64,000 bases of DNA, taken from NCBI RefSeq assembly GCF_022842375.1, contig NZ_JALHPR010000006.1:97001-161000 (forward strand), read 5' to 3'. Both the position numbers and the translations under genes were made by a program. A model generated the notes under the pieces. The model ran no database searches. It was not told the DNA's origin and saw nothing but the letters and a program-made list of their open reading frames with translations. This DNA is from Elioraea sp. (GTDB taxonomy: Bacteria; Pseudomonadota; Alphaproteobacteria; Acetobacterales; Acetobacteraceae). Within the stretch, counting starts at the first letter, position 1. Every line of letters starts with the position of its first letter. Below are positions 10,674 through 37,752 of the stretch, one piece after another.

Positions 10674-12014
10674 TCAGCCCTCCTTGCGCGCTTTCGCGGC
10701 AGCGCGGAAGCGCGCCGCGTGCCCAGGCTTTTCAGTCTGACGCGCGCGGGCAAGCGCCAGTGCGTCAGCCGTCACATCCTCGGTGATCGTGCTGCCAGCC
10801 GCCACGATCGCTCCCTCGCCCACCGTGACGGGAGCGACGAGGGCCGTGTTGGAGCCGATGAAGGCGCTGGCACCGATCACCGTGCGGTGCTTGCCGACGC
10901 CATCGTAGTTGCAGGTGATCGTTCCGGCACCGATATTCGCGCCCCGCCCGATCGTCGCATCACCCAGGTAGGAGAGATGGTTGGCCTTCGCCCCCGGGCC
11001 AAGCGTGGTGTTCTTGAGCTCGACGAAATTGCCGACATGCGCGCCGGCGCCGACATCCGCCCCCGGCCTGAGCCGCGCATAGGGCCCGACCGTCGCCCCC
11101 TCGCCCACCTGCGCGCCCTCGAGGTGACTGAAACTGAGGACCGTGGCCCCGGAGGCAACGCGCACGCCAGGGCCGAACACGACATGGGGGTGGATGGTGA
11201 CATCGGTGCCGAGCACCGTGTCGGCGGCGAGGAAAACCGTCTCGGGTGCGACGAGTGTCGCCCCGCCCGCCATCGCCGCCGCCCGCAACCGCCGCTGCAA
11301 CGCCGCTTCGGCGGCGGCGAGCTCGGCGCGCGAGTTGATGCCGAGCACCTCGTCGGCCGGCGCCTCGGCGACCGCGACCGTCAGGCCATCGGCACGGGCC
11401 AGGGCCACGATATCGGTGAGGTAGTACTCGCCCTTGGCGTTGGCATTGCCCACGGCCTTCAGCCAGCGGCGCATGTCGGCGGCCGGCGCGCAGAAGAGGC
11501 CCGCGTTGCAGAGGCCGATCGCGCGTTCGGCGGCCGTCGCGTCGTTGAACTCGATGATCCGGTCGACCGACCCGTCCGGGCCGAGCACCACGCGGCCATA
11601 CTGCGCCGGATCGGATGGCGTGAAGCCGAGCAGCGCCAGCCCCGCCCCAGCCTCGGCCCGGCGCCTGACCATGGCGGCGAGCGTGGCGGCCGAGACCAGC
11701 GGCACGTCACCGTAGAGGATGATCGCCTCGCCGCCGGTGGCGGCCAGCGCCTCGTCGGCCATCAGCGCGGCATGGGCGGTGCCGAGCCGGTCAGCCTGCA
11801 CCACCACGGCATGGGGTGCGGCGACCTCGCGCATCGGCGCGAAGGACGGCTCCGGCCCCGCGACGACGACGATTCGCGAGAACCCCGCTGCCTCGCAGGC
11901 ATCAAGCAGGAGGCGCACCATCGGCCGGCCGCCAAGCCGGTGCAACGGCTTCGGCACGGCACTCCTGAGCCGTGTGCCAAGCCCTGCGGCAAGGATGATG
12001 GCGAGCTGATCCAT
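10674..12014 (-). CDS. glmU: Bifunctional GlmU: glucosamine-1-P acetyltransferase / UDP-GlcNAc pyrophosphorylase
   Basis: 446 aa from the ATG at 12014 (MDQLAIILAAGLGTRL); a GTG 27 bp further upstream is also in frame but gives a nonfamily extension. The N-terminal half is the nucleotidyltransferase with LAAGLGTRL...PKPLH and ILYGDVPL; the C-terminal half is a left-handed beta helix of hexapeptide repeats (for example ATVGPYARLRPGADVGAGAHVGN), with the acetyltransferase NYDG/GSNT region near the end. It follows glmU-glmS order, giving the second and third steps of UDP-GlcNAc formation next to the first. Confidence 0.96.
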   Translation of the reverse strand: MDQLAIILAAGLGTRLRSAVPKPLHRLGGRPMVRLLLDACEAAGFSRIVVVAGPEPSFAPMREVAAPHAVVVQADRLGTAHAALMADEALAATGGEAIILYGDVPLVSAATLAAMVRRRAEAGAGLALLGFTPSDPAQYGRVVLGPDGSVDRIIEFNDATAAERAIGLCNAGLFCAPAADMRRWLKAVGNANAKGEYYLTDIVALARADGLTVAVAEAPADEVLGINSRAELAAAEAALQRRLRAAAMAGGATLVAPETVFLAADTVLGTDVTIHPHVVFGPGVRVASGATVLSFSHLEGAQVGEGATVGPYARLRPGADVGAGAHVGNFVELKNTTLGPGAKANHLSYLGDATIGRGANIGAGTITCNYDGVGKHRTVIGASAFIGSNTALVAPVTVGEGAIVAAGSTITEDVTADALALARARQTEKPGHAARFRAAAKARKEG

Positions 12015-24534: not shown

Positions 24535-25902
24535 ATGGGCTTCGCGCACACGATCGGCGGCACACGCTTCGTCTTCGATGACCTCCGCACGCTCATGGCG
24601 CGCGCAACACCCTTCCGCTCGGGCGATGCGCTTGCCGGCGTGGCGGCAGGATCGGGGGCGGAGCGTGTCGCCGCGCAATGCGCCCTGGCCGATGTCCCCT
24701 TGCGCCACTTCCTCAGCGAAGCCGTCATCCCCTACGAGGCGGATGACGTCACCCGCCTGATCATCGACGGCCATGACGCACGCGCTTTCGCCCCCGTCTC
24801 ACACCTCACCGTCGGCGGCTTCCGCGACTGGCTGCTGGGGAAGGCCGACACCGCCACGCTCACCGCCCTCGCACCAGGCCTGATGCCGGAAATGACCGCG
24901 GCGGTGGCCAAGATCATGCGGCTGGCCGATCTCGTCGCGGTCGCGGCACGGTGCAGCGTCGTCACGCGCTTCCGCAACACGCTCGGGCTGCCGGGAACGC
25001 TCTCGGTGCGCCTGCAGCCGAATGACCCGACCGATGATCCACGCGGCGTCGCCGCCGCGGTGCTCGATGGGCTGCTGCTGGGCGCCGGCGATGCCGTGAT
25101 CGGCGTGAACCCGGCCACCGACAGTGTTTCGAATACGATACGGCTTCTCCAGCTGCTCGACGAGGTGCGCGCGCGCTACGACATCCCGACGCAGAGCTGC
25201 GTGCTCGCGCATGTGACGACGACGATGGCAGCGATCGCGGCCGGCGCGCCGGTCGATCTCGTGTTCCAGTCGATCGGCGGCACGCAAGGGGTCAACGAGA
25301 GCTTCGGCGTCTCGCTCTCCCTGCTCGCCGAGGCGCGGGATGCAGCGCTCGCACTCCGGCGCGGCACGGTGGGCTGCAACGTGATGTATTTCGAAACCGG
25401 CCAGGGCAGCGCGCTGTCGGCCGACGCGCATCACGGCGTCGACCAGCAGACGATCGAGGCCCGCGCCTACGCCGTCGCGCGTGCCTACGCCCCGCTGCTC
25501 GTCAACTCCGTCGTCGGCTTCATCGGCCCCGAGTATCTCGCCGACGGCAAGCAGATCACCCGCGCAGGCCTCGAGGATCATTTCTGCGGCAAGCTGCTCG
25601 GCCTGCCGATGGGGGTCGATGTCTGCTACACGAACCACGCCGAGGCCGACCAGGACGACATGGACGCGCTGCTCACCCTCCTCGGCGTTGCCGGCGTCAC
25701 CTACGTCATGGGCGTTCCGGGGGCCGATGACGTGATGCTGAACTACCAGTCCACCAGCTTCCACGATGCGCTCGCGGTGCGCGCCGCACTCGGCAAGCGA
25801 CCCGCCCCGGAATTCGTTGCGTGGCTGGACCGTGTCGGCATCGGCACCGATGGCGTGGCGATCCCCCCTGCCCTCTCGCCGACGCTGATCGGCCTTGGCT
25901 GA
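24535..25902 (+). CDS. eutB: Ethanolamine ammonia-lyase, large subunit
   Basis: 455 aa, near the E. coli EutB length. This adenosylcobalamin enzyme turns ethanolamine into acetaldehyde and ammonia. Strongly matching blocks: RSGDALAGVAAGSG, RLQPNDPTDDPRG, GAGDAVIGVNPATD, CVLAHVTTTMAAI, MYFETGQGSALSADA, VVGFIGPEYL and CYTNHAEADQDDMDALL. The ATG at 24535 is preceded directly by a GCGCCAC/GTGGCGC inverted repeat. It overlaps eutC. No microcompartment or eutA reactivase is seen in the window. Confidence 0.96.
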   Translation: MGFAHTIGGTRFVFDDLRTLMARATPFRSGDALAGVAAGSGAERVAAQCALADVPLRHFLSEAVIPYEADDVTRLIIDGHDARAFAPVSHLTVGGFRDWLLGKADTATLTALAPGLMPEMTAAVAKIMRLADLVAVAARCSVVTRFRNTLGLPGTLSVRLQPNDPTDDPRGVAAAVLDGLLLGAGDAVIGVNPATDSVSNTIRLLQLLDEVRARYDIPTQSCVLAHVTTTMAAIAAGAPVDLVFQSIGGTQGVNESFGVSLSLLAEARDAALALRRGTVGCNVMYFETGQGSALSADAHHGVDQQTIEARAYAVARAYAPLLVNSVVGFIGPEYLADGKQITRAGLEDHFCGKLLGLPMGVDVCYTNHAEADQDDMDALLTLLGVAGVTYVMGVPGADDVMLNYQSTSFHDALAVRAALGKRPAPEFVAWLDRVGIGTDGVAIPPALSPTLIGLG

Positions 25903-26638
25903 TCCCCCCGCCGCCTGGCGCGACCTCCGCCGCTTCACCGCAGCACGCGTGGCACTCGGTCGCGCCGGGAACGCACTGCCCACGGCAGCGCATCTCGACT
26001 TCCAGGCCGCGCATGCGCTCGCCCGCGATGCCGTGCACGCGCGGCTCGATACGGCGGTGCTTGCGGCCGACCTCGGCGCCCTCGGGCTTGCCGTCTCGAC
26101 CTGCCGGTCGCGTGCGCCGGACCGCGCGGCCTACCTGCTCCGCCCCGATCTCGGCCGGGTCGCTGACCCCGATGACCTCGCCGCCCTGCCGCGCGAGGGC
26201 GGCGTCGCGCTCGTGATCGGCGACGGGCTTTCGGCCACCGCGGCCGAGCGGCAAGCAGCACCGCTCGTCGCCGCCGCGCTGCCGATGCTCGCGGCGATCG
26301 GCGCGGCCCCGGTGCGTGCGGTGATCGCGACGATGGCGCGCGTCGCACTCGGCGATCACATCGGCGCAGCGCTGGGCGCGGAGGTGGTGATCGTGCTGAT
26401 CGGCGAGCGGCCCGGGCTGTCAGCACCCGACAGCCTCGGCGCCTACATCACCTTCGCACCGCGGCCGGGGCGAACGGATGCGGAACGCAACTGCATCAGC
26501 AACATCCGCCCTGGCGGGCTCGGCTTCCCCGAGGCCGCCGCCACGCTCGCCTGGCTGGTCGGGCAGATGCGGGCGCGCGGCCTCTCGGGCGTGGCGCTGA
26601 AGGACGACAGGCCGGCAGGCGTGCCACGGATCGGCTGA
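25895..26638 (+). CDS. eutC: Ethanolamine ammonia-lyase, small subunit
   Basis: 247 aa with a TTG start whose bases overlap the eutB stop, so expression is coupled. EutC completes the B12-binding site. Matching segments: FTAARVALGRAGNALPTAAHLDFQAAHA, RPDLGRVAD, VVIVLIGERPGLSAPDSLGAYITF and NCISNIRPGGL. Together with eutB this gives use of ethanolamine as a nitrogen or carbon source. An ethanolamine permease and aldehyde dehydrogenase are not next to it. Confidence 0.95.
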   Translation: MADPPAAWRDLRRFTAARVALGRAGNALPTAAHLDFQAAHALARDAVHARLDTAVLAADLGALGLAVSTCRSRAPDRAAYLLRPDLGRVADPDDLAALPREGGVALVIGDGLSATAAERQAAPLVAAALPMLAAIGAAPVRAVIATMARVALGDHIGAALGAEVVIVLIGERPGLSAPDSLGAYITFAPRPGRTDAERNCISNIRPGGLGFPEAAATLAWLVGQMRARGLSGVALKDDRPAGVPRIG

Positions 26639-29745: not shown

Positions 29746-30195
29746 TCAGTCGCGGCAGCGGACCATGATGTTGCCGGTCCAGAGCATCACCACGTCGCCG
29801 TTCTGGTTCAACGTCTCGGTGCGTTGCTTGACGATGCCGCGATCGGGTTTTGACTGTGACCGCCGCGTCTCGAGAACGGTGAGCCGCACCGAAAGCGTAT
29901 CGCCTGGCCTGACGGGGATGAACCAGCGCAACTCGTCGAGCCCCGGGCTGCCGAGGCCGTGGCGCGAGACGGCGTTGTCGGCGAGCATGCGCATAGAGAG
30001 GCTCGCGGTGTGCCAGCCGGACGCGATCAGCCCGCCATAGGGTGTCGCGCGCCCGCCCTCCTCGCTCAGGTGAAACGATTGCGGGTCGTAGTCACGCGCG
30101 AATGCGATGATTTCCTCGGCCGTCACGGTGCGCGCGCCGAAGGTCGCGACGTGGCCGACGATGTAGTCCTCGAAGGTGCGCTCGCGCAGGTCCAT
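29746..30195 (-). CDS. MaoC-family dehydratase (hot-dog fold)
   Basis: 149 aa from the ATG at 30195 ([20 protein letters not shown]). MaoC features: the active-site region [12 protein letters not shown] with Asp and His, [17 protein letters not shown], and [29 protein letters not shown]. Such enzymes add or remove water from enoyl-CoA or related esters. It is the last gene of a three-gene operon with the CGSC protein 4 bp upstream. The natural substrate is unknown. Confidence 0.88.
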
Positions 30196-30199
30196 CGCC

Positions 30200-30733
30200 T
30201 CACTCTGCCGCCACGACGCCGAGGGCGGCAAGCACGCCCGGCAACGCTGCCTCTGCCATCGCGTGCAGTTCCACCGTCGTGCGGTTCTGCACCGGGTGGG
30301 CGACGACGACGGACGCCCCCGCAAAGCCGATCGCCCGTGTCTGGCCCGCGAAGGCCTCCACGAAGGCCTCCGTGATGACGTTGACGCCGGGGATGCCACG
30401 GCGATCGAGGTCGTTGAGGTCATGCGTCGAGCAGGAGGTGCAGGAGCCGCAATCGGACAGTGCGATCACCACCGCGCTGCAGGTGGTGGCGATCTCCTGA
30501 AGCGTCTCGACCGGTGCGGTGCGCGTGTTGGTGGGCTTGCGGAAGCGGCGCGTGGCGATGGCGCGTTCCGTCAGCAGCATGGCGAGGCGGTCGATGAACT
30601 CGTCGCCGCGCATCTTGCCGATATCCAGCAGCGCGACGGTGACGCCGGCAAGGGAAGCAGGCGGGGCGACGCGTGGGCGCATCGCCCCGCTCGCCTCGGC
30701 CGTCGGGTCACGCAGCGTGATGCCATCGCTCAT
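30200..30733 (-). CDS. CGSC-motif redox protein (Cys form of UGSC-type selenoprotein family)
   Basis: 177 aa from the ATG at 30733, which overlaps the stop of the upstream gene (ATGA). The key feature is SDCGSCTSC: Cys95, Cys98 and Cys101 spaced as CxxCxxC. In the UGSC family the first position may be selenocysteine; here the codon at 30449-30451 is TGC, so it is cysteine. A flavodoxin-like alternation surrounds it ([10 protein letters not shown]..., [27 protein letters not shown]). The spacing recalls the UxxCxxC of glycine reductase component B. The reaction is not known to me. Confidence 0.72.
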
Positions 30734-32145
30734 GCAACGATCTCCCGTGTCACGGGCTGGCTCTCGTGGCGGAACCGCCCGCCTGTCCAGCCGGCGCAGA
30801 TTGCGGAGTAGAGGCCGGCGGCACCGCCGGCGCGGACGACGAGAAGCCCCTCCGGCCAGAACTTGTCGACCATGTCCTCGGCCCGCGCTGTCGCCATCCC
30901 CTCGCCCACCCCGCCGGCACCCGCGACGAGGTCGCGGCCGGGGCGGCGCAGGGCCGCACGCAACGCCCCTTCCACCTCGCCCCGCCCCCAGCCGGCGTTG
31001 CGGAAGATGGCATGATGTTCCGGGGCCAGCACGAGAATGGCGTTGAAGAACTCGCAGAGCTTCCAATGCCCGACAGCGAGCAGCGAGAGGGCCAGGGAGC
31101 GGGCGAGTTCATCGGCCGTGCGGCTCCTCCAGTCGATCACGCCCTGGATGCCCTCGCCCTGGAACAGCGTCACCGCACTGCGGCCCGGAGCAATGCCGCG
31201 GGCCTGCGCGAGGGGCTGCCAGGTCGGATCATCCTCGGCCTCGGCGAAGCAGAAGCCCACCTTGTGGGGGCCGCCGAGCGTCGCCTGGTCGATGCCACCC
31301 GGAACCGCGCCGCCGACGTTGCGGATGATGAGGTTGAGCGCGCGGCCGATCGTGGCGTTGGCGCGGTTGCCCTGGCCGAGCGCGTTCGCCCCGCTGTTCA
31401 TCCCGATGCGGCGCGCGATCGGCCCGTTCACCACGATCACGGGCGCGGAGAAGCAGGTGGAGCAGGTGACGCCATGCAGCGTGAACACCGGCTCGAGCGC
31501 CGCCTCGAGCGCGGCGAGCAGGACGGGCATGTATTCGGGCCGGCAACCCGCCATCACCGCGTTGATCGCCACCTTCTCGACCGTGCACGGCACGAGGTTG
31601 GGCGGGATGCTGCCGACAATCTCGTTTGGCAACCGTTTCGTTCCGGCGAGCATGCGCAGGATGCGCGCGTCCGTCGGCGGCACGACGGGAAGCCCATCGC
31701 TCCACCCCCGGTCGAAGCACGCCTCTGCGTCATCGTCCCAGGCGCCGAGCGGGATGGCGCGCGCGGCGAGGAGGGCTGGGCCGAAGCGGGCGGCGAGCGC
31801 CTCGTGCACGAAGGGCTCGCGCGTCTTCGATCCGCAGCCAGGCTGGAACGGCGGCAGGCCTGGGCCGAGGTCAGGCTGGCCGGTCAGCTCTTCCCACGCC
31901 GCACGGTCCCAGCCCTCGGCCTTCGCGCCGTCGTCGCGGACGACAGTTGGCACCGTCTCGACATCGGCGAGGAAGGAGGCGCGGAGGGATGTGTCATCCT
32001 CCGCCCCGAGGCTGGCGTAGAATCCGGGATCGTCCTGGACCCACGCGATCAGCGCCAGGCCGCGGGCGCGGAGCTCGGCGATGACGGGAGCAACGGCCTG
32101 GCAGGTGGCGCAGTCGCGCTTGAGGAAGACAGTGAAGTGGCTCAT
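30730..32145 (-). CDS. Large protein with N-terminal thioredoxin-like domain, partner of CGSC protein
   Basis: 471 aa. Residues 1-90 look like a glutaredoxin/thioredoxin fold with Cys12 and Cys15 in KRDCATCQ and a cis-proline-like ETVPTVV. A second part from about residue 105 starts PGCGSKTREPFVHEAL and continues with WSDGLPVVPPTDARI, PPNLVPCTVEKVAINAVMAGCRPEY and GMNSGANALGQGNRANATIGRA. I recall this second part as a widespread uncharacterised protein next to UGSC-type genes. It carries many cysteines (PGCGS, PCTVEK, TCSTCF). Its ATG lies 22 bp from the divergent GntR gene, with no ribosome site seen. Confidence 0.72.
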   Translation of the reverse strand: MSHFTVFLKRDCATCQAVAPVIAELRARGLALIAWVQDDPGFYASLGAEDDTSLRASFLADVETVPTVVRDDGAKAEGWDRAAWEELTGQPDLGPGLPPFQPGCGSKTREPFVHEALAARFGPALLAARAIPLGAWDDDAEACFDRGWSDGLPVVPPTDARILRMLAGTKRLPNEIVGSIPPNLVPCTVEKVAINAVMAGCRPEYMPVLLAALEAALEPVFTLHGVTCSTCFSAPVIVVNGPIARRIGMNSGANALGQGNRANATIGRALNLIIRNVGGAVPGGIDQATLGGPHKVGFCFAEAEDDPTWQPLAQARGIAPGRSAVTLFQGEGIQGVIDWRSRTADELARSLALSLLAVGHWKLCEFFNAILVLAPEHHAIFRNAGWGRGEVEGALRAALRRPGRDLVAGAGGVGEGMATARAEDMVDKFWPEGLLVVRAGGAAGLYSAICAGWTGGRFRHESQPVTREIVA

Positions 32146-32151
32146 AGCGAT

Positions 32152-32169
32152 ATGCTAGTATATTAGTAT
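32152..32169. promoter_or_regulatory. Candidate GntR/FCD operator shared by divergent genes
   Basis: ATGCTAGTATATTAGTAT is 14/18 palindromic and AT-rich in a GC-rich region, with TAGTATATTAGTAT like TNGTNNNACNA-type FCD-GntR sites. It fills most of the 22 bp between the start codons at 32145 and 32168. TATGCT on the plus strand and TATACT on the minus strand could be -10 boxes; each ends 11 bp before its own ATG, so both mRNAs would have very short or no leaders. Confidence 0.6.
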
Positions 32170-32824
32170 GATAAATGTCGATCCGCCCCAAGGCCCCCTC
32201 AAGCGGAGCCTCGCGGACGCGATCCGCTCCCTGATCGCCGACGGCACGCTCGGCCTCGGCGCGCGCATCTCGGACAAGGCGCTGGCGGCGGAGCTCGGCG
32301 TCAGCCGCACCCCCGTGCGCGAGGCGCTGCTCGCCCTCGTGGGGGAAGGGCTCGTCACCGTCCGCCCGCAATCGGGCAGCTTCGTCTTCCGGCCTGATGC
32401 TGACGAGATCGCCGCGCTCTGCGCCTTCCGGTCGCTGCTCGAAACAGGCGCCGTCAGGCTCGCGCCTGGGCCGGATACGCTGGCCGCGACCCTCGCCGGG
32501 CTTTGCGACGGGGCTGACGCAGCGCTCACGGTGGGCGATCTCGCGGCCTGCGAGACGGCCGATACCGCATTCCATGGGGCGATCGTCACCGCCTCGGCCA
32601 ATCCGGACCTCATCGGCGCGCATCGCGGCATTGCCGCGCGGGTGCGCGCGCTGCGCCACACCCTGCCGGCCACGCGCGGGCGCATCGCCGCCGCCAACGC
32701 CGCGCACCGGGCGATCGCTTCTGCCCTGGCGTCAGGCGAGCGCGAGCGGGCGGCAGCGCTGCTCGCCGCCCATGTCGAGGGCGTGGCGCGGCTTCTCGGC
32801 GCCCCGCCGATCCGCACGCCTTGA
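32168..32824 (+). CDS. GntR-family transcriptional regulator, FCD type
   Basis: 218 aa. Winged-helix DNA-binding part at residues 10-75 with LAAELGVSRTPVREALLALVGEGLV, and an all-helical FCD ligand-binding domain after residue 80 (FRSLLETGAVRL, ADTAFHGAIVTASANPDL, AHRAIASALASGE). The FCD domain usually binds a metal and an organic acid. The ATG at 32168 lies inside the palindrome, with no ribosome site, so translation may be leaderless. It most likely represses the divergent thioredoxin-CGSC-MaoC operon and itself. Confidence 0.88.
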   Translation: MINVDPPQGPLKRSLADAIRSLIADGTLGLGARISDKALAAELGVSRTPVREALLALVGEGLVTVRPQSGSFVFRPDADEIAALCAFRSLLETGAVRLAPGPDTLAATLAGLCDGADAALTVGDLAACETADTAFHGAIVTASANPDLIGAHRGIAARVRALRHTLPATRGRIAAANAAHRAIASALASGERERAAALLAAHVEGVARLLGAPPIRTP

Positions 32825-32927: not shown

Positions 32928-33920
32928 ATGGCGGCGATGATCGAGGTCGAACGGCTGACGAAACGCTTCGGGCCCGTGCTCGCGGTCGACGACGTGTCGA
33001 TGGCCGTCGCGCGCGGCGAGGTGCTGGGCTTTCTCGGCCCCAACGGGGCCGGCAAGTCCACGACCATGAAGATGATCGCGGGCTTCCTCACGCCCACCGC
33101 CGGCACGGCCCGCCTCTGCGGCCATGACGTGCTGGCGGAACCGCTCGCGGTGAAGCGGCGCCTCGGCTACCTGCCGGAAGGGGCACCGACCTACCCCGAC
33201 ATGACCGTGCTCGCCTTCCTGCAATGGGTCGCGTCCATCCGCGGCTTCTCGGGAGCGGAGAAGCGGCGCCGTGTCGAGAAGGCGATGGGTGCGACCAGCC
33301 TCGGCGACGTCATCTACTACCCGATCGAGGCGCTCTCGAAGGGGTTCAAGCGCCGCGTCGGGCTTGCCCAGGCGCTCCTGCACGACCCCGAGGTGCTGGT
33401 GCTCGACGAGCCGACCGATGGCCTCGACCCGAACCAGAAGCACGAGGTGCGCGCGCTCATCACCGCCATGGCGGCCGAGAAGGCGATTGTGATCTCGACC
33501 CACATCCTCGAGGAGGTGGAGGCGATCTGCACCCGCGCGGTGGTGATCGCGCGCGGGCGCCTGGTCGCCGATGCTGCGCCCGCCTCGCTCGCCGCACGCT
33601 CGCGCTGGCACAATGCCGTGACCGTGCGCGTGCTGCCCGACCAGCGCGTCGCCGCCATCGCCGCACTCGCCCGCCTCGATGCCGTCGATGGCGTCGAGGC
33701 CGATGACCACCCGGTCGACGGACTTCTCGCGATCAGCGCCCTGCCGGTCGCCGGCAGGCCGGTCGAGGGGGCGGTGCGCGATGCGCTGGCCGCCGCCGGC
33801 ATCGCACCGCGCGACCTGCGCATCGAGAAGGGCAGGCTCGACGAAGTGTTCCGCGCGATTACCAGCGGCAAGGCGGGCACCAGCGGCAAGGCTCCAGCAC
33901 CGACGAGCGAGGCGGCCTGA
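32928..33920 (+). CDS. ABC transporter ATP-binding protein (Gld-type exporter)
   Basis: 330 aa from the ATG at 32928 (GGGGAG upstream; the next in-frame ATG at 32937 is possible). Walker A is GPNGAGKST, signature LSKGFKRRVGLAQALL, Walker B VLVLDEPTDGLDP and the switch H in ISTHILEEVE. The C-terminal extension ends with a duplicated TSGKAG/TSGKAP segment. It is the motor of a four-gene transporter (permease 2 bp downstream). The set resembles the GldA-GldF-GldG arrangement, here in a non-gliding context. Confidence 0.93.
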   Translation: MAAMIEVERLTKRFGPVLAVDDVSMAVARGEVLGFLGPNGAGKSTTMKMIAGFLTPTAGTARLCGHDVLAEPLAVKRRLGYLPEGAPTYPDMTVLAFLQWVASIRGFSGAEKRRRVEKAMGATSLGDVIYYPIEALSKGFKRRVGLAQALLHDPEVLVLDEPTDGLDPNQKHEVRALITAMAAEKAIVISTHILEEVEAICTRAVVIARGRLVADAAPASLAARSRWHNAVTVRVLPDQRVAAIAALARLDAVDGVEADDHPVDGLLAISALPVAGRPVEGAVRDALAAAGIAPRDLRIEKGRLDEVFRAITSGKAGTSGKAPAPTSEAA

Positions 33921-33922
33921 CC

Positions 33923-34657
33923 ATGCACGTTCTCCTCGCCGTCACGCGGCGCGAGCTCGCCGCCTACTTCGCCACCCCGGTGGCCTATGTGTTCATCGTC
34001 ATCTTCCTGGTGATGCTGGGCGCGCTGACCTTCTCCGTCGGCAGCTTCTTCGAGCGCGGCCAGGCCGACCTCGCGCCGTTCTTCACCTTCCACCCGTGGC
34101 TCTACCTGCTGCTCATCCCCGCCATCACCATGCGCCTCTGGGCGGAGGAACGGCGGACGGGAACGATCGAGCTCCTCCTCACCCTGCCGGTGGCGATGTG
34201 GCAGGCCGTGCTCGGCAAGTTCCTCGCGGCGTGGGCGTTCACCGCCATCGCGCTCGCGCTCACCTTCCCCTTCGTCATCGTCGTCAACATCCTCGGCGCG
34301 CCCGACAACGGCGTCATCCTCGCGGGCTACGCAGGCTCGCTGCTGATCGCCGGCTGCTATCTCGCGGTGGGGGCGGCCGTGTCTGCGTTGACGCGGAACC
34401 AGGTGATCGCCTTCGTGCTGGCCACCGCTGCCTGCTTCGTGTTCACCGTGTTCGGCAGCCCCGTCGTCGCCGGCTTCGTGGCCGATGCGGTACCCGCCGG
34501 GGTGCTGGAAGGGGCGCGGCGGATAAGCCTCATCGGGCGGTATGACAGCATCACCCGCGGCGTGATTGCCGTGCGTGACCTCGTGTTCTTCGCGACCTTC
34601 ATCGGCTTCTGGCTCTACGCCAACGCGGTGATCGTCGAGCTCAAGAAGGTCGGCTGA
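33923..34657 (+). CDS. ABC-2-type permease (GldF-like)
   Basis: 244 aa with six transmembrane segments. Typical pieces: VTRRELAAYFATPVAYVFIVIFLVMLGALTF, FTFHPWLYLLLIPAITMRLWAEERRTGTIELLLTLPV and the later GRYDSITRGVIAVRDLVFF. It pairs with the ATPase 2 bp upstream and the GldG-like protein 1 bp downstream. Confidence 0.92.
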   Translation: MHVLLAVTRRELAAYFATPVAYVFIVIFLVMLGALTFSVGSFFERGQADLAPFFTFHPWLYLLLIPAITMRLWAEERRTGTIELLLTLPVAMWQAVLGKFLAAWAFTAIALALTFPFVIVVNILGAPDNGVILAGYAGSLLIAGCYLAVGAAVSALTRNQVIAFVLATAACFVFTVFGSPVVAGFVADAVPAGVLEGARRISLIGRYDSITRGVIAVRDLVFFATFIGFWLYANAVIVELKKVG

Positions 34658-34658
34658 G

Positions 34659-36620
34659 ATGGCAGCTGCAACCGTGACGGCAGCGAAAGCGCCGCCGCGC
34701 CGCCTCTACGGTGCCGTGGGCATCATCGCCGCCCTCGTGCTCGCCATCGGCGTGAACGTGCTGGCCGACCGGTTCCTCGGCCGCTACCGGATCGACCTGA
34801 CCGAACAGCGCCTCTACACGCTGTCGGACGGCACCCGAAGCGTTCTGGCCGGCATCGATGAGCCGATCACCCTCCGCTTCTACTATTCGCAGCGCCTCGG
34901 CCGGGAGATTCCCGTCTATGCGGGGTTCGCGACCCGCGTGCGCGAGTTCCTCAGCGAATACGCCGCGCTCGCCGACGGCAAGCTCAGGCTCGAATTCTAC
35001 GAGCCGGAGCCGTTCTCGGAGGTGGAGGATCGCGCGCTCGCCTTCGGGCTGCAGGGCGTGCCGGTCGATCAGTCGGGCGAGCAGGTCTATTTCGGCCTCG
35101 CCGGGTCAAACACGCTGGATGACGAGAGGATCATCGCCTTCTTCCAGCCCGAGCGGGAACGCTTCCTCGAGGCCGACCTGACCCGCCTCGTCTACGAGCT
35201 CTCCAACCCCCGCCGCCCCACCGTCGGCGTCATGACGTCGCTGCCGATCAACGGCGAGATGCGCGGCCCCGGCGGCCGCCCCACCCCGCCCTGGGTGGTG
35301 ATGGCCCAGATGCGGCAGTTCCTCACAGTGAAGGACGTCGCCCTCGATGCCGCCGAGGTCCCCGCCGACATCGACGTGCTGATGGTCGCCCATCCGCAAG
35401 GCATCGGGCCGCAGACGGAATACGCGATCGACCAGTTCGTGATGCGTGGCGGCAAGCTGCTGCTGATGGTCGACCCGCATTCCGAGGCGCAGGCCTTCCG
35501 CCCCGACCCGCGCGGCCGGCCGCAGACCGAGACGGCGTCTGACCTCAAGCGCCTGCTCGAGGCCTGGGGCATCGTCTACGACAAGGACAAGGTGGCCGGT
35601 GACCTGCGCGGCGCCTTCCGCGTCCGCGCCGGGCCGCAGGACCGTGTGCAGGCGGTCGACTACGTCGCCTGGTTCGCAGCCTCGGGCCCCGGCCAGATCA
35701 GCCGCACCGACGTGGTGACGGGTGAGCTGAACCAGGTCGCCTTCGGCTCGGCTGGGTTCATCAGCCGCCGCGAGGGTGCCACCATCGCCTTCGAGCCGCT
35801 GGTCACTACCAGCACCGAGGCAGCCGCGATCGATGCGGCGAGCGTGCGCACCGATCCGAACCCGTCGGCCATCCTCGCTGCCTTCCGGCCTGGCGGCACG
35901 GCGCTGACGCTCGCTGCCCGCGTGCGCGGCGAGCTCCGCTCCGCCTTCCCCGACGGCCCGCCCGCAGCTGAGGCAGGCCAGGAGGCGCCGGCCCGCACCC
36001 AGGCCCACAGGGCGCGGAGCGTGGGCAACGCCAACCTCGTCGTGATCGCCGATGCCGATGTGCTCGAGGACCGGTTCTGGGTGCGCGTGCAGGATTTCTT
36101 CGGCCAGCAGGTGGCACAGCCGACGGCAGACAACGGCGCGCTGGTCATCAACACGCTCGACAACCTCGCGGGCTCGGATGCGCTGATCGGGCTGCGCAGC
36201 CGCGGCGAGAGCCGCCGGCCGTTCGAGCTGGTCGACGGCATGCGCCGGCAGGCGGAAGCCGCCTACCGCTCGCGCGAGCAGGCGCTGACCAAGCGGCTCG
36301 AGGAGACCGAGCGGAAGCTCCGCGAGCTTCGCCAGGGCGGGGCGACGGCAGCGGAGCGCGGCCGGGCCGAAGCGGTGCTGACGGCGGAACAGCGCGCGGC
36401 GATCGACCAGGCGCGGGCCGACATCGTCACGACGCGGCAGGAGCTTCGCGCCGTGCAGCGTGAGCTTCGCCGCGACATCGAGGGGCTGGAGAGGACGGTG
36501 AAGATCGCCACCATCGTCGCCGTTCCCGTCGTCGTGTCGCTCGTCGCGATCCTGCTCGGCCTCTGGCGCGTACGCCGGCGTGCAAGGCGGGCGGAGGAGC
36601 CGCTCGCGGCGGCCGCATGA
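34659..36620 (+). CDS. GldG-like auxiliary protein of ABC exporter
   Basis: 653 aa. One N-terminal transmembrane helix (about 20-38), then DLTEQRLYTLSDGTRSVL and a large extracytoplasmic domain of the ABC-transporter auxiliary type (LRFYYSQRLGREIPVYAG, GVMTSLPINGEMRGPGGRP, VLMVAHPQGIGPQTEYAIDQFVMRGGKLLLMVDP). A coiled-coil region (about 545-610, rich in Arg and Glu) precedes a last helix near 615-635. It is thought to act on the outer face of the transporter. The substrate is unknown. Confidence 0.88.
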   Translation: MAAATVTAAKAPPRRLYGAVGIIAALVLAIGVNVLADRFLGRYRIDLTEQRLYTLSDGTRSVLAGIDEPITLRFYYSQRLGREIPVYAGFATRVREFLSEYAALADGKLRLEFYEPEPFSEVEDRALAFGLQGVPVDQSGEQVYFGLAGSNTLDDERIIAFFQPERERFLEADLTRLVYELSNPRRPTVGVMTSLPINGEMRGPGGRPTPPWVVMAQMRQFLTVKDVALDAAEVPADIDVLMVAHPQGIGPQTEYAIDQFVMRGGKLLLMVDPHSEAQAFRPDPRGRPQTETASDLKRLLEAWGIVYDKDKVAGDLRGAFRVRAGPQDRVQAVDYVAWFAASGPGQISRTDVVTGELNQVAFGSAGFISRREGATIAFEPLVTTSTEAAAIDAASVRTDPNPSAILAAFRPGGTALTLAARVRGELRSAFPDGPPAAEAGQEAPARTQAHRARSVGNANLVVIADADVLEDRFWVRVQDFFGQQVAQPTADNGALVINTLDNLAGSDALIGLRSRGESRRPFELVDGMRRQAEAAYRSREQALTKRLEETERKLRELRQGGATAAERGRAEAVLTAEQRAAIDQARADIVTTRQELRAVQRELRRDIEGLERTVKIATIVAVPVVVSLVAILLGLWRVRRRARRAEEPLAAAA

Positions 36621-36666
36621 GGGTGCGATCTGCGATGCGGAATGCAATGCGTAACGGAGGCGGGCG

Positions 36667-37752
36667 ATGACACGGCGCGGCGTCCTCATGCTCGGGGCTG
36701 GGGCTGCGATCGTCGCGGCTGGGGCGGTCGCCGTCGTCATGACCGGCGAGACGACGCGCACCGAAGCCGCGCTGATCGGCCAGCCGGTGTTCCCCGGCGT
36801 CGCCGCCCGCCTCGCCGAGGCGCGGACGGTCGAGATCCGGAAAGCAGACGCGACCCTGTCGCTCACCCGCGCCGAGGACGGCACCTGGGGGCTGGCCGAT
36901 CGCGGCGGCTTCCCCGTCCGCGCCGACCGCGTGCGCGAGCTCTTCGCTGGGCTTGGCGAGCTTCGGCTGATCGAGGAGCGCACGGGCAACCCTGAGCTCT
37001 TCTCCCGCCTCGGCCTCGAGGACGTGACGGTCGCCGGCGGCACCAGCCAGCTCCTCACCGTGAAGGACGGCCAGGGCCGGGTGATTGCCGAGGCGATCCT
37101 CGGGCGTCGGCGCATCCGCACCGCCGGCAACCTGCCGGAGGCGATCTATATCCGCCGGCCGGGCGAGAACCGGACATTCCTCGCCGAAGGCCAGCTGCGC
37201 ACCGACACCGACCCGATGCTCTGGGTCGAGCGCGAGGTGCTGGACATCAAGCGCCAGCGCATCGCCTCCGCCACCGCCCACCGCGCCGGCGAGGACGCCG
37301 TGACGGTCGTGCGCGACACCCCAGCCGCCGAGCAGGCCACGATGGCCGACATGCCCGAGGGGTTCAGGCCTGACCAGGGCAAGATCGACGATCTTCCCCG
37401 CGCGCTGGAGTGGATGACGTTCAACGACGTCCGCCCCGCCGCCGCCGTCGCTGCCGGCACCCCGACCGGAGAGGCGCGGTTCGCGAGCTTCGACGGCCTT
37501 ACCCTGACGCTGCGCATCGTCACGGCGGACGACAAGCGCTGGGCGCTCGTCTCGGCCGGCTGGGAGGACAAGGGCCCGCGGTCGGAGGGTGCACCGCCCG
37601 AGGTCAGGACGCCCGAGGAGGCCCGCGCGGAAGCCGAAGCGCTCACCCGCCGCCACGCCCCCTGGGCCTACCAGCTCGTCGACTGGAAGACCGACATCCT
37701 GCTGCTCCGCCGCGAGGACATGCAGGCGCCGCCGCCGCGCGACCCGTCCTAG
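36667..37752 (+). CDS. DUF4340-domain protein
   Basis: 361 aa with an N-terminal membrane anchor (VLMLGAGAAIVAAGAVAVVM) and then a DUF4340 beta-rich domain: FPGVAARLAEARTVEIRKAD, GTWGLADRGGFPVRADRVRELFAGLGEL, RTGNPELFSRLGLEDV. The ATG at 36667 has ACGGAGG upstream. In many genomes this domain follows the GldG-type gene, as here, so it is very likely the fourth part of the exporter. Its molecular job is not known. Confidence 0.85.
   Translation: MTRRGVLMLGAGAAIVAAGAVAVVMTGETTRTEAALIGQPVFPGVAARLAEARTVEIRKADATLSLTRAEDGTWGLADRGGFPVRADRVRELFAGLGELRLIEERTGNPELFSRLGLEDVTVAGGTSQLLTVKDGQGRVIAEAILGRRRIRTAGNLPEAIYIRRPGENRTFLAEGQLRTDTDPMLWVEREVLDIKRQRIASATAHRAGEDAVTVVRDTPAAEQATMADMPEGFRPDQGKIDDLPRALEWMTFNDVRPAAAVAAGTPTGEARFASFDGLTLTLRIVTADDKRWALVSAGWEDKGPRSEGAPPEVRTPEEARAEAEALTRRHAPWAYQLVDWKTDILLLRREDMQAPPPRDPS

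Follow-up and report, generated by a model that had tools for sequence, protein, structure and literature searches.

A thioredoxin-fused protein paired with an all-cysteine UGSC-family protein in Elioraea, a candidate GrdB-like reductase

The window considered here is a stretch of 64,000 nucleotides from Elioraea sp. (NCBI RefSeq assembly GCF_022842375.1, contig NZ_JALHPR010000006.1, positions 97,001 to 161,000 of the forward strand). Its subject is a pair of genes encoding a protein of 471 aa, called the partner below, and a protein of 177 aa belonging to the UGSC family, whose characteristic residue is selenocysteine (Sec). We propose that the two proteins form a thioredoxin-driven reductase of UGSC type resembling GrdB and that the Elioraea pair is a natural all-cysteine version of it, a reading to which we give a probability of roughly 60%. 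The features of the pair are as follows.

30730..32145, (-) strand: partner protein, 471 aa; thioredoxin (Trx) fold at residues 1-91 with CATC at 12-15 and Pro66, linker PGCGS (C104), domain of ~330 aa (C201, C299)
31834..31836, (-) strand: partner Cys104 codon TGC; TGA at the same place in loci L080, L084 and L134
30200..30733, (-) strand: UGSC-family protein, 177 aa, Cys form; Pfam PF24696 at 121.5 bits; C95-G-S-C98-T-S-C101
30449..30451, (-) strand: Cys95 codon TGC; TGA in 73 and TAG in 2 of 78 UGSC loci
30407..30451, (-) strand: place of the selenocysteine insertion sequence (SECIS) hairpin of Sec relatives; window z +1.55 against synonymous variants, that is, no excess stability

Pairing of the two proteins

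A survey of 240 genomes of the class, scanned for the partner domain and for UGSC, found each of them in 21 genomes, and the 21 were identical. A second sample consisted of the best 80 of at least 578 partner relatives and is biased toward Trx-fused forms. UGSC was present in 78 of these 80 loci. In 73 it is on the same strand as the partner gene and no more than 400 nt downstream of it, in three it is adjacent and divergent (L127, L128, L133), and in two it is some 4-5 kb off (L084, L110); in L136 and L151 no UGSC turned up, the downstream coverage there being ~0.2 and ~1.3 kb. In a further five loci (L193, L194, L198, L266, L267) UGSC and the partner domain form a single chain, and apart from the motif's own TGA no in-frame TGA separates the end of one domain from that of the other. 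The motif of these fused chains is CUGSCTPA, and most are then followed by a second partner-domain gene.

Beyond each other the two genes have few constant neighbours. With crude calling of open reading frames (ORFs), the 60 first-downstream ORFs included eight thiolases, six SelA, two TctC and one MaoC, the last in Elioraea rosea, and the 49 first-upstream ORFs (of 50; that of L073, antisense to GntR, was omitted) included six alpha/beta hydrolases and three SelB-wing matches.

The UGSC protein and its kinship with GrdB

The original prediction took the 177-aa protein to be of UGSC type, and it is a member of PF24696 (gathering cut-off 25 bits); against NCBIfam NF041046 it scores 122.3 bits, marginally below the equivalog cut-off of 125. 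An alignment of 73 rows was made from the window protein and 72 of the 78 UGSC loci (L086, L095, L102, L109, L123 and L141 were omitted), and every row matches NF041046 at E up to 0.01. With Sec read as Cys, position 95, G96, S97, C98 and C101 are invariant in this alignment and T99 and S100 nearly so, which bears out the conservation that the prediction expected of its cysteines. The AlphaFold2 model (pLDDT 91.0) has a flavodoxin-like alpha/beta fold, with CGSC (95-98) at the start of helix 96-111.

A resemblance of the CxxCxxC motif to the UxxCxxC of GrdB had also been suggested, and it holds up. C95, C98 and C101 are present at the UxxCxxC positions, the GrdB model is matched by 39/73 and the GrdF model by 41/73 UGSC members (E up to 0.01), and hhalign places C95/C98 on the Sec/Cys of alphaproteobacterial GRDB proteins with a probability of 34% and an E of 4e-4. 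The window protein itself aligns over residues 77-151 with positions 328-398 of the GrdB NCBIfam model at 24.2 bits against a cut-off of 602.2, and by score it is not a GrdB.

Alphaproteobacterial PF07355 matches were examined as possible relatives and rejected, 16 of the 17 rows (L163 was left out) forming a separate family with UPxC-type motifs. Of these selenoproteins, examples of which are found at L166, L168 and L169, several lie near tRNA-Sec genes on the same contig, L170 and L174 carry Cys, and none was found in the window genome.

The partner protein

The partner was modelled by AlphaFold2 with a pLDDT of 92.6. Residues 1-91 have a thioredoxin fold (3ios, Z 9.2, rmsd 2.2 over 90 residues) with a Trx-type signature, C12-A-T-C15 and a Pro66 that is invariant in an alignment of 81 rows; the thioredoxin fold predicted for the large protein is therefore confirmed, but only for its first ~91 of 471 residues. 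C15, C104, C201 and C299 are conserved in 81/81 rows, three of the C104 rows being Sec read as C, and C12 in 80/81, the remaining row having X. C104, C201 and C299 are thus further conserved thiols that the original prediction did not mention. C227 and C230 of the window partner were dismissed, since they are not conserved in the 81 rows.

No Pfam or NCBIfam model scored above its cut-off for the 471-aa protein, the ~330-aa C-terminal domain included. A family scan of the 81 members returned solely thioredoxin-type matches, each family in at most 24/81 rows, and a PDB search with the whole-chain model gave no clear match beyond residue 91. Three sets of candidates for this protein were discarded: FBPase_glpX (13.8 against 27 bits in Pfam) was judged a chance match; cyclic amide hydrolases (5hy4) and DUF1185 (3byq) appeared for the C-terminal domain only as weak Foldseek rows with a probability of at most 0.25; and profile comparison of the domain gave ~0.1% for AtzD (3 rows), AA_synth (27 rows) and GRDB (16 rows).

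Selenocysteine and cysteine at position 95

Almost all relatives of this type carry Sec where the CGSC motif begins with Cys, a point absent from the original prediction. Codon 95 is TGC in the window and in just two of the 78 UGSC loci, one further locus being uncovered at this codon. In the 21 class genomes 53 of the 54 UGSC genes have a single TGA, the exception being the window gene. TAG stands at the Sec codon in L109 and L141 (UGSC gene at 11383-11880 in both), from Blastococcus and Geodermatophilus; for Geodermatophilaceae there is a published report of Sec coded by UAG, with selenoproteins of UGSC motif (PMC5330540).

In 67 of 76 Sec rows the sequence after the Sec codon folds into a hairpin whose loop lies at about nt 20-27. 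Measured against synonymous variants its mean z over the 76 rows was -1.87, with 59 below -1, compared with a mean of -0.23 (sd 0.95; 52/243 below -1) for 243 control stretches. The SECIS hairpin has been lost in the window gene. The other two Cys genes gave values of -1.05 (E. rosea) and -0.64 (L074), and in that of E. rosea a hairpin persists whose loop occupies the position typical of Sec genes. The window genome, whose assembly is 99.3% complete in 78 contigs, also has no clear SelA, SelB or tRNA-Sec. SelA reached 51.3 bits against a cut-off of 267.9 and SelB 180.1 against 242.25. Matches to tRNA-Sec fall at 67-83 bits in 31/240 genomes and at 54.9 or less in the others; the window genome, at 52.8, is above the Rfam cut-off of 47 and within the lower band that is also seen in control genomes. 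A high match was found in 19 of the 20 other UGSC genomes, the exception being G011, which is 77% complete, and some partner-UGSC pairs have SelA, SelB or tRNA-Sec genes beside them.

The Cys genes of the window, E. rosea and L074 form one clade (97/89) neighbouring a Sec form (100/97), which is most simply explained by a single Sec-to-Cys conversion. Cys forms exist outside the clade as well: CGSC also occurs in relatives without the Trx domain (Trx-less below), in haloarchaea and some bacteria, and 21 Cys homologues stood beside 255 Sec homologues in the Global Ocean Sampling (GOS) survey, from which the UGSC family comes and in which it was one of the major selenoprotein families (PMC2398784).

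The loss of the hairpin and the want of clear Sec machinery might suggest a decaying remnant, a Cys copy left inactive once Sec decoding had gone. Such decay is very unlikely. Against E. rosea, the nearest relative with a species name (84% identity), dN/dS is 0.17 for the partner, 0.15 for UGSC, 0.14 for the adjoining MaoC gene and 0.28 for the GntR regulator; partner, UGSC and MaoC all evolve under purifying selection, and the low ratios argue that the Cys version is in use. All the family thiols have moreover been retained, and the operon and its possible operator, described below, are conserved in E. rosea.

A probable second selenocysteine

In three of the 80 partners an in-frame TGA falls exactly at C104, in the PGCGS linker. 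These partners form one clade and are located as follows.

L080:5023-6438, L084:10001-11410, L134:7681-9099: TGA-containing partners of betaproteobacterial metagenome-assembled genomes

In the stem after the codon (+4 to +12) same-residue codons are identical in 7/7 cases, compared with 122/307 gene-wide, and over the first 14 codons (+1 to +14) in 9/11; the stem folds at -8.5 kcal/mol. The z against synonymous variants was flat in the three partners (0.13, 1.25 and 0.20). Given this flat z, and given that the 7/7 range is the better of two examined, Sec at position 104 of these three partners is regarded as probable and not as proven. A probable Sec in three relatives nevertheless marks C104 as a likely redox-active position.

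Thioredoxin supply

Relatives without a fused Trx domain indicate where the reducing power may come from. The gene order in Arthrobacter ERGS1:01 is trxB-trxA-partner-UGSC, and trxB also lies near the pair in Roseovarius THAF8 and Variovorax SRS16; the partners of all three have no Trx domain. A TrxB-like gene was found within 4 kb in 12/42 Trx-less loci compared with 0/80 Trx-fused loci (Fisher 8.5e-7). The 42 were selected as Trx-less from match lists and 14 of them are plasmid loci, three of which had provided queries for this count. With the 28 non-plasmid loci only, the figure was 8/28 (Fisher 8.8e-6), two of the 28 being misfits, as L193 also has a Trx-fused pair and L196 has a Trx-fused partner only. 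A recount with an outside query, the window TrxB, gave 11/36 Trx-less against 0/63 Trx-fused loci with full 2-kb flanks and 10/33 against 0/47 with full 4-kb flanks. Because TrxB-like genes favour the Trx-less loci, the fused Trx domain and separate trx genes look interchangeable.

A number of observations weigh against the proposal of a thioredoxin-driven, GrdB-like enzyme. No TrxB-like gene lies within 4 kb in 30/42 Trx-less loci, 9 of the 12 TrxB-like matches, eight from the 28 non-plasmid loci and one haloarchaeal, are only 27-39% identical to the window TrxB, and UGSC itself went undetected in 5/42 Trx-less loci; the Trx-fused loci L076, L079 and L081 do have a TrxB-like gene, 4.6-5.9 kb off. 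The scores for kinship with GrdB are weak (E 1.4e-5 for the window protein, besides the hhalign probability already given), and C101 is not universal, other subfamilies carrying UGSC-SSW or CUGSCTPA. The structures that UGSC matches in the PDB have generic flavodoxin-like folds; GrdB/PrdB entries were absent among the matches listed, an absence that carries no weight. The GrdE/PrdA-type family PF09338 was found in 0/299 genomes, a count to be read with the controls, which gave no match either.

The proposed enzyme and its substrates

The electron path, chemistry and substrate class that we infer for the reductase are these. Electrons would pass from NADPH to a thioredoxin reductase encoded elsewhere in the window genome (TrxB, 404.7 bits), from there to C12/C15 of the fused thioredoxin domain, and then through partner thiols, C104 and perhaps C201/C299, to the C95/C98 pair of UGSC. 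Cys95, in place of the selenolate of the relatives, would attack a substrate bound by the ~330-aa domain of the partner, in a chemistry modelled on the Sec of GrdB/PrdB in glycine and proline reductase. The product of the attack would be a mixed (seleno)sulfide or a C-S(e) adduct, to be resolved by C98/C101 before the relay re-reduces the site. The substrate would probably be a small carboxylic acid or a CoA ester.

Small-acid substrates are suggested by the number of UGSC paralogues, up to eight in one genome (G187), and by the annotated neighbours of the Trx-less relatives: CoA transferases, CoA ester lyases, TctC/TRAP receptors, PEP-mutase family proteins and AcnX-DUF126. The same observations bear on a different view of the pair as part of general redox defence, in which partner and UGSC would be a thioredoxin-dependent peroxidase or a detoxifier of electrophiles or organometals and not a catabolic reductase. 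In favour of such a role, thiol oxidoreductases and proteins of Trx-like fold make up most of the GOS selenoprotein families (PMC2398784), and the pair is without widely conserved metabolic operon mates. However, as many as eight paralogues fit a diversity of substrates better, the Trx-less relatives have the neighbours just listed, and the sequence kinship points to GrdB, so that a defence role appears unlikely.

Two further kinds of neighbour are of note. Aconitase X and DUF126 adjoin a long partner-domain protein in L238 and L246 (Sporomusa termitida and Vibrio europaeus plasmids), where UGSC was undetected, and are a possible clue to the substrate. An annotated phosphosulfolactate synthase lies near the pair in Arthrobacter (L237:4668-5456; ComA 127.5 bits against a cut-off of 280) and in Natrinema (L234:3865-4332; no NCBIfam match), which may hint at a link with C-S chemistry.

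The operon in Elioraea

The remaining features of the locus in the window are as follows.

29746..30195, (-) strand: MaoC-type hydratase, 149 aa; Pfam MaoC_dehydratas; outside the conserved core
32168..32824, (+) strand: GntR/FCD regulator, divergent; homologue only in E. rosea among the 80 loci
32149..32170, no strand: 22-nt AT-rich element between the divergent genes, possible operator

The genes, CATC, CGSCTSC, ATGA overlap and divergent GntR described in the original prediction were all found where it had placed them. The start of the UGSC gene falls within the ATGA that it shares with the stop codon of the 471-aa gene, and the MaoC ORF (53.1 bits against a Pfam cut-off of 27) begins 4 nt past the UGSC stop. 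The regulator scores 65.3 against 27 bits for its HTH and 66.3 against 24.3 bits for FCD (Pfam), and its start codon is 22 bp from that of the divergent 471-aa gene. The inner 18 nt of the 22-nt element are self-complementary at 14/18 positions and the element has a single difference from that of E. rosea, features consistent with a possible operator. E. rosea retains the order GntR-partner-UGSC-MaoC. A genome of the same genus is without the system, and the partner domain is matched in 23/100 genomes of the family, a patchy distribution in which transfer has possibly played a part.

The prediction had further supposed that the thiol relay powers a reductive pathway, with MaoC acting as hydratase or dehydratase on the CoA ester of an acid imported by TctCBA. 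Several observations are in keeping with this. MaoC follows UGSC closely, E. rosea has kept the operon and selection on its MaoC gene is purifying, and MaoC stands right after UGSC on the same strand not only in the window and E. rosea but also in alphaproteobacterial G011:C70, where it lies beside a Sec-form UGSC (L057, 965-1357; 32% identity, 94.8 bits against Pfam MaoC). Opposite-strand MaoC genes with 26-29% identity also occur near the pair in six actinobacterial loci (L124, L131, L138, L140, L145, L149), and both of the two checked were above the Pfam cut-off. With these loci and G011:C70, MaoC is a thin but repeated neighbour. TctC-type receptors are present near the wider family in six loci including the window, and also on Natrinema, Variovorax and Acidovorax plasmids. 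TctC receptors are abundant in betaproteobacteria, for which reason their presence is weak evidence. TctCBA in the window is convergent with the operon and not part of it, and no Tct genes were found in the 21-kb E. rosea locus. The predicted co-occurrence of three genes thus held for the 471- and 177-aa pair but mostly failed for MaoC, which is the first-downstream ORF in one of the 60 cases counted above. As MaoC is confined to few lineages and TctCBA was not found in E. rosea, a thiol relay feeding a dehydratase is thinly supported, and we consider the MaoC/Tct pathway quite improbable.

Elsewhere in the window EutB and EutC (ethanolamine ammonia-lyase; 24535-26638, (+) strand) lie immediately upstream of TctC. 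Genes for an ABC transporter, ABC_transp_aux and DUF4340 (32932-37752, (+) strand) lie downstream of GntR; of these, the permease and ABC_transp_aux genes show synteny with E. rosea.

Comparison with known systems

The original prediction called the UGSC-type family uncharacterised, and the literature agrees. Among the papers found, those that treat UGSC as a protein family are selenoproteome surveys, reviews and one tRNA-Sec paper, and no function is assigned in the available text of these; Mukai 2016 is referenced in PMC10778597. A 2026 review that names UGSC describes the biological functions of such selenoproteins as largely uncharacterized (PMC13188914). A Cys-only copy under purifying selection would need no Sec recoding for expression in E. 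coli and would ease the study of a widespread enzyme family, and the fused Trx domain, the probable second Sec and the neighbouring TrxB/TrxA genes give an electron path that is concrete and testable.

The window protein matches PF24696/NF041046 over its full length and has the GSC motif; it differs from the family in having Cys where the family has Sec. A Trx-fused partner is not described for UGSC in the available passages of the papers cited. The GOS survey did report a UGSC/Unknown_1 fusion, UGSC being joined to a domain of no known identity (PMC2398784); fused UGSC chains also occur in the present loci, and we infer that Unknown_1 is the partner domain. The likeness of the partner to thioredoxin and TlpA-like proteins, a fold Z of 8-9 over residues 1-91 with CxxC and the invariant Pro66, is confined to its N-terminal fifth.

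Sec-to-Cys changes are described as rare, with documented cases primarily in FdhA and SelD (PMC13188914), and the Elioraea gene is a clear conversion outside these two. In 2006 15 such events were recorded in four families, some with a remnant SECIS (PMC1794560). The conversions with remnants (FdhA, HesB-like) share with the present case a Cys at the Sec place and the kind of hairpin kept by E. rosea; the family is a different one, and here the window genome is without clear Sec machinery.

GrdB and the PrdB of D-proline reductase are a further parallel, sharing a UxxCxxC-type motif, a local match around it and a link to thioredoxin. UGSC has 177 aa whereas the GrdB model has 431 positions, the partner domain has no profile match to GRDB, and many UGSC-bearing organisms are presumably aerobes, unlike those of GrdB/PrdB. 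The UGSC pair could, more speculatively and at clearly less than even odds, represent a further class of Sec-dependent reductive cleavage beside glycine and proline reductase. Members of such a class would occur widely among bacteria and also in haloarchaea, with a partner fold as yet unsolved and with electrons from fused or adjacent Trx; the relay would contain two Sec (Sec95 and Sec104) in some betaproteobacteria and sulfur only in Elioraea.

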